Positions 16,496 to 26,539 of a DNA stretch of 44,263 nt are shown here, piece after piece (position 1 is the stretch's first letter; each line of letters begins with the position of its first letter). Origin of the DNA: a virus; the IMG/VR virus record IMGVR_UViG_3300028844_005280, positions 1-44,263 of that record; one strand, written 5' to 3'. The translations under genes were made by a program, and so were the position numbers. The notes under the pieces are model-generated. The model ran no database searches. It had not been told where the DNA came from and worked only from the letters and a program-made list of their open reading frames with translations.

Positions 16496-16520
16496 ATTTG
16501 AAACAAGTTAGTTGATCGTC

Positions 16521-16543
16521 AAGCTGGACGTTAAACGTAGCTT
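16521..16543 (+). other. Leader hairpin with GACGTTAAAC loop
   Basis: Stem AAGCT / AGCTT (5 bp) with loop GGACGTTAAACGT, in the leader of the first early gene. A hairpin with a different stem but the same GACGTTAAAC word occurs at 20115-20135, suggesting a small repeated RNA motif. Confidence 0.4.
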
Positions 16544-16570: not shown

Positions 16571-16762
16571 ATGCAAACTCAAACAATTGCTTTCACAACT
16601 GAGAAGTTTTACTTCGAGTTTAAGATTGTAAGTGACTTAGATGTTGCTTACATAACCAAGAGAGCATTCAAAGGAACCAAGTTCAACGACCAGAGCACAA
16701 AGGTTACAGTCCAACAGGCTCGTGACTACTACGCAAAGGTCAAGACTGAGTCCGTAAGTTGA
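16571..16762 (+). CDS. Early small protein (63 aa)
   Basis: MQTQTIAFTTEKFYFEFKIV..., alternating hydrophobic/polar N-terminal strands and a helix (VTVQQARDYYAKVKTESVS). First gene of the early cluster, downstream of the Fur-like site. Its TGA stop lies inside the first tRNA-minihelix-like element (16757). No ribosome-binding site is obvious. Function unknown. Confidence 0.7.
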   Translation: MQTQTIAFTTEKFYFEFKIVSDLDVAYITKRAFKGTKFNDQSTKVTVQQARDYYAKVKTESVS

Positions 16763-16823
16763 TCCGTCAAAGCGGTAGGCCGGGTGCAAACCCCGGTCCA
16801 ACTATTGCCACAATCCCGTGGCA
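16757..16823 (+). other. tRNA-minihelix-like intergenic element 1 plus hairpin
   Basis: Closing stem AGTTG (16757-16761) / CAACT (16799-16803). Inside is a small hairpin CCG-TCAAAG-CGG (16764-16775), then a 7-bp T-arm GGCCGGG / CCCGGTC with 7-nt loop TGCAAAC (16785-16791). Position 16804 is the conserved A. A second hairpin TGCCAC-AATCCC-GTGGCA (16806-16823) follows. The upstream gene's TGA is within the closing stem. T-arm plus closing stem totals 12 bp, as in a tRNA acceptor/T minihelix. Confidence 0.7.
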
Positions 16824-16839
16824 TCTACTAGATCACATC

Positions 16840-17016
16840 ATGTATCCTGACAACCTCGAAGAATGTCTCAAGTATATTGTTGAGACTGCAGCCAACTTTA
16901 AACAAGTTGCTAAAGATGCAGGACATCCTGTTACTCTTGACGAAGCTTTGGTTATTGCTGTTGCTCAATTACAAGAGCGCACAGCTGATCAACGTTGTCG
17001 TGAAGAACTCGCCTGA
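16840..17016 (+). CDS. Early small helical protein (58 aa)
   Basis: Start at 16840 chosen because a longer frame would run through the preceding RNA element and because ATG follows the ATCACATC context common here. MYPDNLEECLKYIVETAANF... is a helical protein with a helix-turn (PVTLDEALVIAVAQL) and a charged C-terminus. No family recognised. Its TGA sits in the next RNA element. Confidence 0.66.
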   Translation: MYPDNLEECLKYIVETAANFKQVAKDAGHPVTLDEALVIAVAQLQERTADQRCREELA

Positions 17017-17069
17017 TGGTGTAGGAGGGGTTCGATTCCCCTCCCAGGTATTGCCACAATCCCGTGGCA
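17011..17069 (+). other. tRNA-minihelix-like intergenic element 2 plus hairpin
   Basis: Closing stem GCCTG (17011-17015) / CAGGT (17045-17049), with a short 8-nt insert and no small hairpin. The T-arm is GGAGGGG / CCCCTCC with perfect tRNA T-loop TTCGATT (17031-17037). Conserved A at 17050, then hairpin TGCCAC-AATCCC-GTGGCA (17052-17069). The upstream TGA lies at the edge of the closing stem. Confidence 0.72.
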
Positions 17070-17086
17070 TCTATTTACATAACATC

Positions 17087-17293
17087 ATGTTTATTTCAAG
17101 AGCATCTGCTTCTGCACCTATCATGTTCATCGGTACGCTTGTACTAGCGCTCGGTACTATCAGTGCCGCAGTTGTACTGCCTACAGTATTAGAAGGTGCA
17201 ACACGTAAGCAGTGTCTTAACCATGACTGGCCTGCTGATAAGCACGCCGTTCATATGGAGTTCTGCCAATCATACGGCTACCCCACCAACTGA
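17087..17293 (+). CDS. Small membrane protein (68 aa)
   Basis: MFISRASASAPIMFIGTLVL..., one strong N-terminal membrane helix (about 10-32). A soluble tail follows with two Cys residues in CLNHDWPADKH and MEFCQSYGYPTN. ATG at 17087 follows the TAACATC context. The Cys/His tail could hold a metal or disulphide, but this is not shown. Possibly acts on the host membrane early in infection. Confidence 0.68.
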   Translation: MFISRASASAPIMFIGTLVLALGTISAAVVLPTVLEGATRKQCLNHDWPADKHAVHMEFCQSYGYPTN

Positions 17294-17354
17294 CCACCAA
17301 GCGTGAGCTGGAGGATCGAATCCTCCGGTCAGTTATTGCCACAATCCCGTGGCA
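17288..17354 (+). other. tRNA-minihelix-like intergenic element 3 plus hairpin
   Basis: Closing stem AACTG (17288-17292) / CAGTT (17330-17334); insert with a weak CAC/GTG hairpin. The T-arm is CTGGAGG / CCTCCGG with loop ATCGAAT (17315-17321). Conserved A at 17335; hairpin TGCCAC-AATCCC-GTGGCA (17337-17354). Both strands of the closing stem changed relative to elements 1 and 2, so pairing is kept by compensation. Confidence 0.72.
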
Positions 17355-17370
17355 TCAATCACACAACATC

Positions 17371-17742
17371 ATGTTGCAAACACTCCGTACACTCGTGCCC
17401 GTTGTTCAAGCTGTCGTTCTACCCGATGGCTTGTATCAATTAGCAGCAGAGTGGACCAACGAAGACGGCCTTGCTAAAACTCACAGAGTCAAGGTCGGCT
17501 ACGAGTATAACGACGAGGAGCTTGCGATTCATCGCGGCGAGCGTCAAGAAGACGGCAGCTACGCTTACGTCTCGCCCAAAGGACGTATTCATACATGTCC
17601 TGCGGAGAAGGCTTCTATCTACGATAAGAGCCAAGCTGAGCAGCAGCAACGGTACCAAGCATGGAAGCAAACCATGGGTGGTAACGGACCAACTGTTGAC
17701 TGCTGCAATCCCCTGCCGTTCAATTGCCTTCAGCAGAGATAG
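17371..17742 (+). CDS. Early hypothetical protein (123 aa)
   Basis: MLQTLRTLVPVVQAVVLPDG..., a beta-rich N-terminal half (LYQLAAEWTNEDGLAKTHRV), then a charged half with QEDGSYAYVSPKGR, and a C-terminal CCNPLPFNCLQQR with three Cys. The last codons and the stop run into a downstream hairpin (17725-17745). A translational or structural link is possible. Function unknown. Confidence 0.66.
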   Translation: MLQTLRTLVPVVQAVVLPDGLYQLAAEWTNEDGLAKTHRVKVGYEYNDEELAIHRGERQEDGSYAYVSPKGRIHTCPAEKASIYDKSQAEQQQRYQAWKQTMGGNGPTVDCCNPLPFNCLQQR

Positions 17743-17745
17743 GCA
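17725..17745 (+). other. TGCC-type hairpin overlapping a stop codon (no minihelix)
   Basis: Stem TGCCT / AGGCA with loop containing AGCAGAGAT, the same hairpin as in element 7. The upstream T-arm part is missing or decayed. The stop TAG (17740-17742) of the preceding gene is inside the hairpin. Confidence 0.5.
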
Positions 17746-17763
17746 CTGCACAGCAGCACGACC

Positions 17764-17970
17764 ATGCAAGTTTTTGCAGTACACGAATCAGGCAATTGCG
17801 ATTGCGTATTTCCTGGCTACGTATCAGTCTGGCGCAACTACGACGACGCATATGCGGCGGCGGGAGAAGCGCAAGCCATGGATCCGGAGGCTTTTTACGC
17901 TGTTGAAACCATTGAGGAATCAGAACTCCAAGAGTTTTGGTTCTGGAACCACTACTTAACACTTGCCTGA
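17764..17970 (+). CDS. Early small acidic protein (68 aa)
   Basis: MQVFAVHESGNCDCVFPGYV..., then SVWRNYDDAYAAAGEAQAMD and an acidic Trp/Phe-rich C-terminus. Short beta hairpin followed by a helix; this resembles small proteins that relay a value or bind a partner, but no family is recognised. Its TGA lies in element 5. Confidence 0.66.
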   Translation: MQVFAVHESGNCDCVFPGYVSVWRNYDDAYAAAGEAQAMDPEAFYAVETIEESELQEFWFWNHYLTLA

Positions 17971-18026
17971 AGGTGAAGGAGGGGTTCGACTCCCCTCCCA
18001 GGTATTACCCCCAGCGGAGATGGGTA
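17965..18026 (+). other. tRNA-minihelix-like intergenic element 5 plus hairpin
   Basis: Closing stem GCCTG (17965-17969) / CAGGT (17999-18003); short 8-nt insert as in element 2. T-arm GGAGGGG / CCCCTCC with loop TTCGACT (17985-17991). Conserved A at 18004. The following hairpin is TACCC / GGGTA (18006-18010, 18022-18026), a two-sided change from the TGCC/GGCA stems of other copies. Confidence 0.7.
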
Positions 18027-18046
18027 CCGCACAACAGGAGATTCCT

Positions 18047-18299
18047 GTGGCCAACAACACCATCTCCGCTCTTAACGCTCTCGAGGTAACAGCCGTGTCG
18101 ATAAGTAATGGAGAGTGGACTGATTCTTTGAGTTGGGATCCACCATCCCGTGAAGAACTAGGAGCACGTGTTTTCTTTGAGATTGAAACGTGTTTTCTTT
18201 GAGATTGAAACTCTCATGGAGCGCGGACACTCTCAGGTTCTAACCAAAGATCACGCGGCTAAGATCGTCGCCATGGCGTCGAAGCTGCTTAACGACTGA
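18047..18299 (+). pseudogene. Small early gene broken by a 22-bp tandem duplication
   Basis: A GTG start at 18047 follows AGGAG with a 6-nt spacer, one of the few clear ribosome sites here. The product begins MANNTISALNALEVTAVSIS. A 22-bp repeat (18166-18187 and 18188-18209) shifts the frame, giving a stop at 18200-18202. Removing one copy restores an open frame to the TGA at 18297-18299, with C-terminus GHSQVLTKDHAAKIVAMASK. The intact product would be about 76 aa. The duplication may be real, a phase-variable change, or an assembly error. Confidence 0.72.
18166..18209 (+). repeat. Perfect 22-bp tandem duplication
   Basis: Unit ACGTGTTTTCTTTGAGATTG plus AA, present twice in direct succession. 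As 22 is not a multiple of three it breaks the reading frame of the surrounding gene. Confidence 0.95.
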
Positions 18300-18361
18300 T
18301 CCGTCAACGCGGTCATCCCCGGTGCAATGCCGGGGTCAGTTATTGCCACATTTTCGTGGCA
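18294..18361 (+). other. tRNA-minihelix-like intergenic element 6 plus hairpin
   Basis: Closing stem GACTG (18294-18298) / CAGTT (18337-18341); insert hairpin CCG-TCAACG-CGG. T-arm CCCCGG / CCGGGG with loop TGCAATG (18323-18329). Conserved A at 18342; hairpin TGCCAC-ATTTTC-GTGGCA (18344-18361), same stem but new loop. The intended stop TGA of the broken gene is in the closing stem. Confidence 0.7.
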
Positions 18362-18378
18362 TCTATTTACATAACATC

Positions 18379-18585
18379 ATGGCTGACTACGACAAATTCC
18401 GTAATCACATGGAAGAACCTGAGATTAGCGGTGCACTCTCTAGACTTACAGAAGACGACAAGCAATTAATTGCTAATGCCGCAACACTTGGCATCATGGG
18501 AGTCGGTACTGTTATTGCAGGACCAATGGTGGCAGTGCTTGGTGGTTGCCTTTGGGCAATCGACCGTGCACGACGCAACCCTTAA
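18379..18585 (+). CDS. Small membrane protein (68 aa)
   Basis: MADYDKFRNHMEEPEISGAL..., charged N-terminal helix, then a strong membrane segment (LGIMGVGTVIAGPMVAVLGG) ending in a basic RARRNP tail. One-TM, N-out or N-in not decided. Starts after the TAACATC context. Its TAA directly abuts element 7. Possibly an early membrane effector; function unknown. Confidence 0.66.
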   Translation: MADYDKFRNHMEEPEISGALSRLTEDDKQLIANAATLGIMGVGTVIAGPMVAVLGGCLWAIDRARRNP

Positions 18586-18654
18586 GCTGATTCGTTAACG
18601 CGAGTCCGGTGGTGCAAACCCACCGGCAGCTATTGCCTCCTGCAGAGATAGGCA
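18585..18654 (+). other. tRNA-minihelix-like intergenic element 7 plus hairpin
   Basis: Closing stem AGCTG (18585-18589) / CAGCT (18627-18631); insert TCG-TTAACG-CGA hairpin, a compensated version of CCG/CGG in other copies. T-arm CCGGTGG / CCACCGG with loop TGCAAAC (18613-18619). Conserved A at 18632; hairpin TGCCT / AGGCA (18634-18638, 18650-18654). Confidence 0.72.
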
Positions 18655-18673
18655 CTGCACTTCTTCAAATCAC

Positions 18674-18961
18674 ATGATTGAATTCTATTTTCAATCCCAT
18701 CCATCTCTCATGGATGCATACATAGCTCGCTATGAAGATGATCTCATCGGATTAGTGACGCTAGTGACAGGACCAAAAGGCATCGGCCTGATGGGAACAC
18801 TAGAACCTGGTCGTGATGAAACGACTTACGAGGTTATGTTCCCAGGGTCTGATGATCCTATTGGTTACCTAACACTTGGTGAAACCGTTGGTATTATCAA
18901 GTACCTTCGATCTCAACTAATGCGTAAGAGATTAGAAGCTTGCGCTGAACTTACCAGCTGA
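18674..18961 (+). CDS. Early hypothetical protein (95 aa)
   Basis: MIEFYFQSHPSLMDAYIARY..., a mostly beta protein (VTLVTGPKGIGLMGTLEPG, YEVMFPGSDDPIGYLTLGE) with a C-terminal helix of basic and Leu residues. It looks like a compact single-domain protein. No family recognised. Its TGA sits at the end of element 8's closing strand. Confidence 0.67.
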   Translation: MIEFYFQSHPSLMDAYIARYEDDLIGLVTLVTGPKGIGLMGTLEPGRDETTYEVMFPGSDDPIGYLTLGETVGIIKYLRSQLMRKRLEACAELTS

Positions 18962-19033
18962 TCCGTCAAAGCGGGAGGCCAGGTGCAAACCCTGGTCCAG
19001 CTATTGCCTCCTCACTCTCTACACGAGGGGGCA
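18956..19033 (+). other. tRNA-minihelix-like intergenic element 8 plus hairpin
   Basis: Closing stem AGCTG (18956-18960) / CAGCT (18998-19002); insert CCG-TCAAAG-CGG. T-arm GGCCAGG / CCTGGTC with loop TGCAAAC. Conserved A at 19003. The following hairpin is longer: TGCCTCCT (19005-19012) / AGGGGGCA (19026-19033), 8 bp with one G-T pair. Confidence 0.72.
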
Positions 19034-19057
19034 TCAATCCTTTATCACATCAAACCA

Positions 19058-19441: not shown

Positions 19442-19562
19442 CCAAGCACCCATTGCGCTTACTCCTACCAAGACCACTACGGTTACGATTTCCATTGGAT
19501 TAATATCTTTGTATTGATCTTATGGTTGAATGAGTAATTAAATTGTTACAGTTGTTACAACG

Positions 19563-19589
19563 CTAGGCATCCACTGGTGTAAGTCCTAG
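19563..19589 (+). other. Type-2 intergenic RNA motif, copy a
   Basis: Closing stem CTAGG (19563-19567) / CCTAG (19585-19589). Between them: CA, a T, a 2-bp CC-ACT-GG hairpin, TG, then TAAGT. Matches four to five other copies downstream in order of parts while the stems differ. It sits 21 nt before the next ATG. Confidence 0.55.
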
Positions 19590-19610
19590 TCACACCATTG
19601 AAGCTAACTA

Positions 19611-20100: not shown

Positions 20101-20114
20101 CCATTGACCGTCCT

Positions 20115-20135
20115 GAGCATGACGTTAAACTGCTC
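20115..20135 (+). other. Small leader hairpin with GACGTTAAAC loop
   Basis: Stem GAGCA / TGCTC with loop TGACGTTAAAC, between the 20100 stop and the 20160 start. Same loop word as the hairpin at 16521 with a different stem. Confidence 0.4.
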
Positions 20136-20409: not shown

Positions 20410-20787
20410 ATGCTTAACCAGGTCACCGAAAGCATTGCAGTCACCTTTGGATACACCCCGTTCCCAGAAGGTGAGCAAGACAAACAGTTCCAAGCAGAAA
20501 TCAACTACGACCCGCAGAAGAACACGCCGCCCAAAAGCGGTAGTGTCTATAGAAACAAGCAGGGAGTTTTTAGGATCTACTGGACACCAAGCGAAGAGCA
20601 TCCCACCTACGGACCAGATGAAAACGGAATGTCTTACGCCTACACAGTCGAAGGCTGGTACGATGTTCCAACCAATGGAGAAGTCGAAGAGGAATGCCTT
20701 GGAGAAGTAGCGCTCGATCCATGTGGAGAAAATGAACTAGAACCTGACCATCCAGATGCATGGCCCAGGCTTCTTGGCTTGATCTAA
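20410..20787 (+). CDS. Early hypothetical protein (125 aa)
   Basis: MLNQVTESIAVTFGYTPFPE..., probably beta-rich (SGSVYRNKQGVFRIYWTPSE, YTVEGWYDVPTNGE) with an acidic C-terminus (CGENELEPDHPDAWPRL). Chosen over an overlapping frame from 20327 because its composition is protein-like. Function unknown. Confidence 0.66.
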   Translation: MLNQVTESIAVTFGYTPFPEGEQDKQFQAEINYDPQKNTPPKSGSVYRNKQGVFRIYWTPSEEHPTYGPDENGMSYAYTVEGWYDVPTNGEVEEECLGEVALDPCGENELEPDHPDAWPRLLGLI

Positions 20788-24207: not shown

Positions 24208-24603
24208 ATGAAAGTTTACGGTCTTTACACACGCAAAGATGGTAGACAGCACGTCATCCTTTACAAAGATGGCGTGCGAACTACTGTTAGTTATCCCAAG
24301 TATCTACTTGAACAGAAGCTTGGACGCTCACTCCTGCCGACTGAAACATGTGATCACATTGACAATGATCACACCAACAACTGTCTTGATAACTTACAAG
24401 TGTTGACACGTAGTGACAACGCCCGCAAACAAATGTCATTACAGCCTGCGGAAGTAGGAACTTTTACTTGTCCTGTTTGTAATTCTTCATTTACTAAGCA
24501 AATGAATTACATTCGAGCTAACCTTAAGCAGAACAAGTCTGGTCCTTACTGTTCCAGGTCTTGTGCAGGGAAGGGTAGTCACCCATCTAACAAGGGCGTG
24601 TAG
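24208..24603 (+). CDS. HNH homing endonuclease with C-terminal zinc finger
   Basis: 131 aa. An N-terminal beta region leads to the HNH core LPTETCDHIDNDHTNNCLDN, with DH..(x)..N pattern and LQVLTRSDNARKQ, typical of phage HNH_3 enzymes. The C-terminus (FTCPVCNSSFTKQMNYIRAN and YCSRSCAG) is a zinc ribbon that also appears at the N-terminus of the 25333 protein. Such genes are mobile and nick DNA near their insertion site. The stop TAG lies inside the tRNA at 24594. Confidence 0.83.
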   Translation: MKVYGLYTRKDGRQHVILYKDGVRTTVSYPKYLLEQKLGRSLLPTETCDHIDNDHTNNCLDNLQVLTRSDNARKQMSLQPAEVGTFTCPVCNSSFTKQMNYIRANLKQNKSGPYCSRSCAGKGSHPSNKGV

Positions 24604-24670
24604 TCCAATTGGCAGAGACATGGAGTTTAAGCCTCCACAAGTGTGGGTTCGAGTCCCTCCACGCCTACCA
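24594..24670 (+). tRNA. tRNA-Leu-like, anticodon UAA, short variable loop
   Basis: Acceptor GGGCGTG / CACGCCT with encoded A-CCA end (24667-24670). D-arm GTC / GAC with AATTGG loop; anticodon stem TGGAG / CTCCA with loop TTTAAGC, giving anticodon TAA (Leu). T-arm loop TTCGAGT with one mismatch in its stem. The variable loop is only five bases, whereas bacterial tRNA-Leu has a long one. The first 10 bases overlap the HNH gene and its stop codon. The tRNA fold is clear; the amino acid is less certain. Confidence 0.8.
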
Positions 24671-26392: not shown

Positions 26393-26539
26393 TGGAGTTC
26401 TCCGATAAAACAAGCCCCGTTCCAAGCCTGTTGTTATGCGCCTCTTGACAGAGGTGAACGTCCTTTTATTATAGGACATCTTTAATTTCATGGGCAGTCT
26501 TGACGTAAGCCCCATGCAACTCACATCACACCACACATC

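Follow-up and report, generated by a model that had tools for sequence, protein, structure and literature searches.

The virus DNA analyzed here (the window, the whole stretch of 44,263 nucleotides) corresponds to positions 1 to 44,263 of IMG/VR record IMGVR_UViG_3300028844_005280 and carries seven tRNA-like RNA elements at the boundaries of consecutive genes, which we found to belong to a large, previously unlisted RNA family in cyanophage genomes. The main class of this family (class A) is a tRNA without anticodon arm and not a bare minihelix, because it comprises a small D-hairpin and an elbow; a preliminary description, made from the letters of this DNA alone, had likened the elements to a tRNA minihelix, which is correct for the acceptor/T-arm helix of 12-13 base pairs (bp) running to an unpaired base 73 but omits the D-arm and elbow added in class A. 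The same description speculated that structured RNAs serve as tRNA punctuation between genes, and this idea is strongly supported by the covariation of the stems, the elbow, the lack of an Rfam match and the occurrence of tRNAs in the same genomic slot, with tRNA-type processing, mainly an RNase Z cut after base 73, probably yielding single-gene mRNAs.

Elements in the window

All seven elements are present at 16757, 17011, 17288, 17965, 18294, 18585 and 18956, as first reported, and were recovered both from the sequence and by a letter-blind search whose grammar (5-bp stem, 7-nucleotide (nt) loop, 5-bp outer stem, one base, TT) names no loop sequence. At a spacing of 12, this grammar gave 12 matches in the window vs. 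2.7 expected from shuffles, including six of the seven elements; the one left out, 17288, has a spacing of 13. Applied to 1.15 Mb of related contigs, the search yielded a clear excess at spacing 12 only (262 unique vs. 90 shuffled matches), with tRNA-like loops topping the spacing-12 list and weaker tRNA-like loops at spacing 13. A covariance model, trained on a set that includes three of the window copies, detected 16757, 18294, 18585 and 18956 at E values of 3e-12 to 3e-19, 17011 at 1.6e-6, 17288 at 0.0035 and 17965 weakly (E 1.5). The view that the seven share one plan did not hold, as they fall into three classes, namely A (16757, 18294, 18585 and 18956), C (17011 and 17965) and B (17288), and the loop of 17288, initially taken as a 7-nt T-loop (ATCGAAT), is better read as a UCGAA pentaloop. 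The reported overlap with or abutment to the upstream stop codon was confirmed, with the stop codon residing inside the element in six copies and abutting it in one (18583-18585), and a second hairpin or pseudoknot lies directly 3' of each element. The features are listed below with the open reading frames (ORFs) that they serve.

16757..16804, plus strand: tRNA-like element 1, class A; acceptor AGTTG/CAACT, D-arm CCG-TCAAAG-CGG, T-loop TGCAAAC, base 73 A; contains stop TGA of ORF 16571-16762
16805..16825, plus strand: UU and hairpin TGCCAC/GTGGCA; 5' leader of ORF 16840-17016
17011..17050, plus strand: tRNA-like element 2, class C; acceptor GCCTG/CAGGT, linker ATGGTGTA (with GG), T-loop TTCGATT, base 73 A; contains stop TGA of ORF 16840-17016
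17051..17071, plus strand: UU and hairpin TGCCAC/GTGGCA; leader of ORF 17087-17293
17288..17335, plus strand: tRNA-like element 3, class B; acceptor AACTG/CAGTT, hairpin AGC-GTGA-GCT, 13-bp helix with TCGAA loop, base 73 A
17336..17356, plus strand: UU and hairpin TGCCAC/GTGGCA; leader of ORF 17371-17742
about 17697..17722, plus strand: decayed eighth element; 3' half kept (TGCAATC loop, 12 nt, A, TTGCC), 5' part deleted
17723..17751, plus strand: UU and pseudoknot-type leader TTGCCTTCAGCAGAGATAGGCACTGCAC; leader family D4, a leader type that covaries
17965..18004, plus strand: tRNA-like element 4, class C; acceptor GCCTG/CAGGT, linker AAGGTGAA (with GG), T-loop TTCGACT, base 73 A; contains stop TGA of ORF 17764-17970
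18005..18033, plus strand: UU and pseudoknot-type leader, of a type that covaries
18294..18342, plus strand: tRNA-like element 5, class A; acceptor GACTG/CAGTT, D-arm CCG-TCAACG-CGG, T-loop TGCAATG, base 73 A
18343..18363, plus strand: UU and hairpin TGCCAC/GTGGCA; leader of ORF 18379-18585
18585..18632, plus strand: tRNA-like element 6, class A; acceptor AGCTG/CAGCT, D-arm TCG-TTAACG-CGA, T-loop TGCAAAC, base 73 A; abutted by stop TAA
18633..18660, plus strand: UU and pseudoknot-type leader of ORF 18674-18961
18956..19003, plus strand: tRNA-like element 7, class A; acceptor AGCTG/CAGCT, D-arm CCG-TCAAAG-CGG, T-loop TGCAAAC, base 73 A; contains stop TGA of ORF 18674-18961
19004..19038, plus strand: UU and hairpin TGCCTCCTC/GAGGGGGCA; leader of the next ORF

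At the gene matching that of the decayed eighth copy, two relatives (L087 and L123) carry an intact class A element. As a separate observation, a 22-bp perfect tandem duplication at 18166-18209 causes a frameshift in the gene starting near 18020, the shifted frame of which misses the stop codon inside element 5, reflecting either real decay or an assembly error.

Fold, classes and covariation

From 5' to 3', class A comprises a five-pair closing stem, AU, a three-pair D-arm-like hairpin (CCG or TCG, a 6-nt loop, CGG or CGA), two bases, a T-arm of seven pairs and a 7-nt loop, the second closing strand, one unpaired base (73) and UU, followed by the second structure. Class C displays a short linker with GG but no paired D-stem, and a true UUCGA T-loop; class B consists of a hairpin with a GUGA-type loop and a UCGAA pentaloop, the closing pair of which varies among A-U, C-G and G-C. 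Together with others seen in relatives, at least four designs have a common 3' geometry.

The preliminary description took the compensatory stem changes among the window copies as evidence for RNA, and the homologues bear this out by covarying far beyond shuffles and slid registers. In a class A alignment of 62 sequences, 98.4% of the cells are paired and 12 of the 16 pairs show double changes; the covariation score is 0.591 vs. 0.178 for shuffled alignments (0 of 500 shuffles), and sliding the pairing partner by a single base abolishes the covariation. These sequences came from contigs found with a pattern in which some D-arm and T-loop letters were preset, which partly accounts for the constancy of these letters; neither the stem covariation nor the elbow test depends on them. 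As for gathering the relatives, a terminase query returned mostly short contigs ending before the array and a query with the neighboring 771-residue protein returned three loci only, DNA patterns being more productive.

The tRNA-like ruler was evident among 205 junctions of relatives, which were anchored on a following TTGCC or TTACC, that part of the junction being kept by construction. Base 73 lies 12 nt from the T-loop in 171 of them, 13 nt in 30 and 14 nt in 4; said to be an invariant A, it is A in every window copy but in 174 of the 205 junctions. Outside class B (n = 164), the hallmarks of a T-loop are present in 92-96% of junctions, as exemplified by G53-C61 (155), U54 (156), C56 (151), R57 (157) and A58 (157). 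The +1/72 pair is formed in 86 of 102 class A copies and pairing of -1 with 73 is not above chance; the closing stem ends exactly where an acceptor stem should. When class A copies were gathered without requiring the UU, T was found at position 49 in 62/62 and at position 50 in at least 90%, and CCA was never found.

The D-loop/T-loop elbow

The elbow of a tRNA includes a pair between D-loop base 19 and T-loop base 56. The class A elements covary at this tertiary pair, with G-C in 59 and A-U in 3 of the 62 aligned sequences, and a further A-U case was seen in one relative (L143). We also scanned the IMG/VR collection for each combination, bearing in mind that all counts from scans of this collection are lower bounds and its sampling is uneven. 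The A19-U56 combination was present in at least 5 contigs, all genuine complete elements with differing stems and neighbors (two of them related), and the mismatched A19-C56 in 0 contigs among the matches listed. The G19-U56 scan returned at least 8 contigs, all of them one unrelated coding sequence lacking a T-stem, and these were discarded as not genuine. In addition, position 18 tracks position 55, with G18 occurring mostly with U55 and A18 or C18 with G55, with one clear exception (L189).

A tRNA slot before the podovirus capsid gene

In podoviruses, the junction before the major capsid gene has a conserved leader starting with TTGGC, and what precedes this leader in different phages ranges over class A and C elements, elbow variants, a 'type III' hairpin, decayed tRNAs and complete tRNAs, all ending at the same base. 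A targeted scan added many more cases, including canonical tRNA-Gly(UCC) with Rfam scores of up to 73 bits, lacking CCA and with U73 directly against TTGGC. This differs from tRNA-Leu genes elsewhere in these phages, most of which encode CCA, as does the tRNA-Leu(UAA) of the window (24594-24670). Intermediate forms were also found, in that L220 retains good acceptor, D and T arms with a broken anticodon stem, and L259 and L333 keep weak matches to the tRNA model. The elements are thus interchangeable with real tRNAs at one genomic site, which displays a natural series from complete tRNA to decayed tRNA to minimal mimic. We regard the replacement of a tRNA by small elements at the same base as the best evidence of function, because the tRNA enzymes of the host should cleave a CCA-less tRNA embedded in an mRNA.

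Several other features were noticed at this junction. The 'type III' hairpin has a conserved loop, CACCTCAGAGTCGGA, on a strongly varying stem (L217, 960-1000; L214, 1700-1740; many of L219-L337); it is about 13 layers long, may obey the same ruler and has no Rfam match. On the minus strand of L220 (3901-3937), an abiF RNA match (47.8 bits) lies directly upstream of a decayed tRNA-Leu-like element, with the phage capsid gene after it. Matches to the Glutamine-II riboswitch are common just upstream of the cyanopodovirus capsid junction, occurring before the capsid region in L213, L216, L259 and L274; the window has one at 26409-26463 (minus strand).

Gene cassettes and their leaders

The stop codon of the upstream reading frame falls within or next to the element at 181 of the 205 junctions, usually at one particular position of the stem. 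When two junctions have homologous upstream genes, their elements are similar (z 6.5) and their leaders are not (z 0.2); when the downstream genes are homologous, similarity is seen in the leaders (z 4.4) and is absent from the elements (z 0.0). Compared with the window, the relative L184 contains an insertion of two further genes, both equipped with a leader and a tail element, that lies exactly between a base 73 and the UU after it; behind the gene that ends in class B in the window (17288), this relative carries class A instead, on an identical closing stem. With a leader hairpin and a tail element of its own, every gene forms a complete cassette, and such cassettes are inserted and exchanged by joining at base 73|U.

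The leaders are themselves structured, with the first pair of the pseudoknot type covarying between G-C (63) and A-U (25). These pseudoknot-type leaders (18005-18060 in the window, and many relatives) are often succeeded by a third small hairpin (e.g. ACAGGAGAATCCTGTG), with GGAG in one strand and a GTG or ATG start adjacent, which may gate translation. A second recurrent leader, H-type pseudoknot-like (GTCCTGAGCATGAC-TTAAA-GCTC), was seen at 16513-16540 and 20105-20135 of the window and at about 6727, 10218 and 10940 of L001; its stems covary by eye, and in L103 and L159 it replaces the usual hairpin directly after the tRNA-like element. Another recurrent intergenic motif ends in GTAAGTCC inside a closing stem (about 19561-19590 and 29961 in the window; about 8270 and 8965 in L001) and in relatives is found just before the tRNA-Leu gene.

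Distribution and prior descriptions

The class A pattern occurs in at least 118 stretches of IMG/VR contigs, nearly all at one fixed spacing, and the family as a whole was found in over 100 IMG/VR contigs and in the cultured phages S-EIV1, P-SSP7, S-CBP2, S-TIP37 and NATL2A-133. The last four, all T7-like cyanopodoviruses, have early-region matches, some of them weak; in P-SSP7 and S-TIP37, an element match is positioned directly before the major capsid gene, that of P-SSP7 occupying 20,632-20,686 of NC_006882, ahead of gene 10. The elements had been described as punctuating early genes, but the range is wider, as podoviruses use one before the major capsid gene. When 84,980 genomes of bacteria and archaea were scanned with a single pattern, there were five matches, which look like chance: they are irregularly spaced, come from unrelated bacteria and include no cyanobacterium. 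The family was found only in phages and is carried by viruses of marine and freshwater cyanobacteria.

The preliminary description knew of no named family with this layout, and we likewise found none: no Rfam 15 family matches the elements at gathering or permissive thresholds, and ARAGORN and Rfam applied to the window returned the tRNA-Leu at 24594 as the only tRNA, with all seven elements without a match. The literature searched, which consisted of openly licensed papers, contains no account of such elements. Cyanophage genomes, including that of the well-studied P-SSP7, thereby gain a large RNA family.

Proposed mechanism and alternatives

We propose that each element acts in cis as a tRNA-like RNA at the 3' end of a phage gene, with an acceptor/T-arm helix of 12-13 bp under a T-loop, locked by the elbow in the main class, and with base 73 unpaired and no CCA. 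Host RNase Z would measure this helix from the elbow and cut after base 73, so that the polycistronic phage transcript would be split into mRNAs of one gene each. On the upstream side, the mRNA would retain its stop codon and end in a folded tRNA-like cap, to which CCA could be added; the downstream mRNA would start with UU, and a hairpin or pseudoknot beginning one or two bases further in would shield the new 5' end. A hairpin or pseudoknot near the 5' end is a classic shield against 5'-end-dependent decay. In some copies, RNase P may additionally cut on the 5' side. With respect to the enzyme, CCA-less tRNAs are substrates of RNase Z, which recognizes the tRNA elbow (PMC4810234); it cleaves 3' of the discriminator base, a position that lay between A and U in one tRNA examined (PMC8549757), and in cyanobacteria it is encoded by a single-copy gene (PMC10989914).

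Recognizing that the preliminary description had pointed to RNase P, we favor RNase Z because: 1) the sharply conserved boundary is the 3' one; 2) CCA is absent; 3) A|UU is found at the predicted cut in most copies; and 4) an RNase P cut would remove the upstream stop codon lying inside the element. RNase P as main reader, cutting 5' of the closing stem so that the downstream mRNA begins with a folded tRNA-like cap, would agree with the recognition of the elbow by the bacterial enzyme as well (PMC4810234) and with the full tRNAs at the capsid junction, which would be RNase P substrates. However, the outer pair of class A is A-U in 57 of 102 copies and G-C in only 7 of 102, with no preference for U at -1, and we deem this reading unlikely. 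It is also quite improbable that the elements are uncleaved structures that stabilize the 3' end or block exonucleases, protecting the upstream mRNA or setting a decay boundary; a stable fold directly at the stop codon with a second structure directly after it would fit, but the exact 12-13 nt ruler, the unpaired base 73, the UU without CCA, the covariation of the elbow and the exchange with complete tRNAs would be left unexplained.

The cassette behavior, together with the two-cassette insertion in L184, might be rooted in DNA recombination sites flanking mobile cassettes, akin to integron attC sites or T4 early stem-loops, with the RNA fold being secondary. We consider this very unlikely, as the elbow is not expected of a DNA site, full tRNAs can substitute for the element, and the single podovirus copy keeps its place before the capsid gene across genera; integron attC sites in particular were rejected, the cassette-end GTTRRRY core being present in 0 of the 205 junctions. 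The least credible of these alternatives is a regulatory RNA that binds a protein or ligand (operator, antiterminator or riboswitch) and recurs in front of every gene: some loop letters are kept in class A, but at the same junction elements are replaced by classes having only the tRNA geometry in common, and there is no Rfam match. 

Several observations weigh against processing by tRNA enzymes as we propose it. Class B, which accounts for 41 of the 205 junctions, lacks a canonical T-loop, the podovirus 'type III' hairpin lacks any T-loop, and position 55 of class A is G, unlike in tRNAs. Recombination breaking anywhere between two genes would also yield the pattern of z-scores, or at least part of it. 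Furthermore, folding and translation should compete, because terminating ribosomes would unfold the 5' strand of the element.

Extending the RNase Z reading, we postulate, with confidence evenly balanced, a punctuation code in which cassettes end in an anticodon-less tRNA mimic holding the stop codon and start with a protective hairpin, such that RNase Z would release capped-and-tailed single-gene mRNAs, possibly CCA-tailed, and cassettes would shuffle freely at the same base, the mimics having originated at least partly by decay of captured tRNA genes. If the cleavage takes place, tRNA punctuation, best known from mitochondria, would operate in phages of the ocean's main photosynthetic bacteria with mimics reduced to what tRNA-processing enzymes read, which would account for how these phages produce single-gene mRNAs and explain the shuffling of their small early genes as cassettes.

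Comparison with known systems

A close parallel resides in the t-elements and tRNA punctuation of mitochondria. Plant mitochondrial t-elements are substrates of both RNase P and RNase Z and can acquire a CCA end without aminoacylation (PMC11658184). As in those systems, the phage elements are tRNA-like structures at mRNA ends that, given the predicted cleavage, would set these ends without a role in translation, and they interchange with real tRNAs at the same site (here tRNA-Gly(UCC) at the podovirus capsid junction). In contrast to t-elements, which have homology to entire tRNA genes and occur in small numbers per genome, the phage elements are mostly devoid of an anticodon arm, hold a stop codon inside, occur in arrays and belong to phages of bacteria. 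With true tRNAs (RF00005) they have in common the T-arm, the acceptor geometry, the elbow and base 73, and full tRNAs matching RF00005 occupy the same slot in some relatives; they differ in lacking the anticodon arm and CCA, in having G55 in the main class, and in forming an array without ARAGORN or Rfam match.

The PeSL (promoter early stem-loop) cassettes of T4-type phages are boundary stem-loops that carry early promoters in a variable early region and travel with genes. By this description they resemble the phage elements as stem-loops at gene boundaries moving with genes, but PeSLs carry early promoters, whereas we saw no promoter role in the phage elements and looked for none. The early region of T7 has RNase III sites, which are processing signals between early genes, and RNase III reads long double-stranded RNA. 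Although those sites are likewise positioned between early genes in the transcript of a T7-like phage, they need an extended stem of about 20 bp, whereas the phage elements are tRNA-like folds of 12-13 bp with T-loop and elbow, and an RNase III processing site was rejected on the basis of this helix length. Finally, viral 3' tRNA-like structures such as that of turnip yellow mosaic virus (TYMV) also copy the tRNA elbow without the full tRNA architecture (PMC4810234), but a plant RNA virus genome has a single such structure, at its 3' end, whereas the phage elements are located between the genes of DNA phages.

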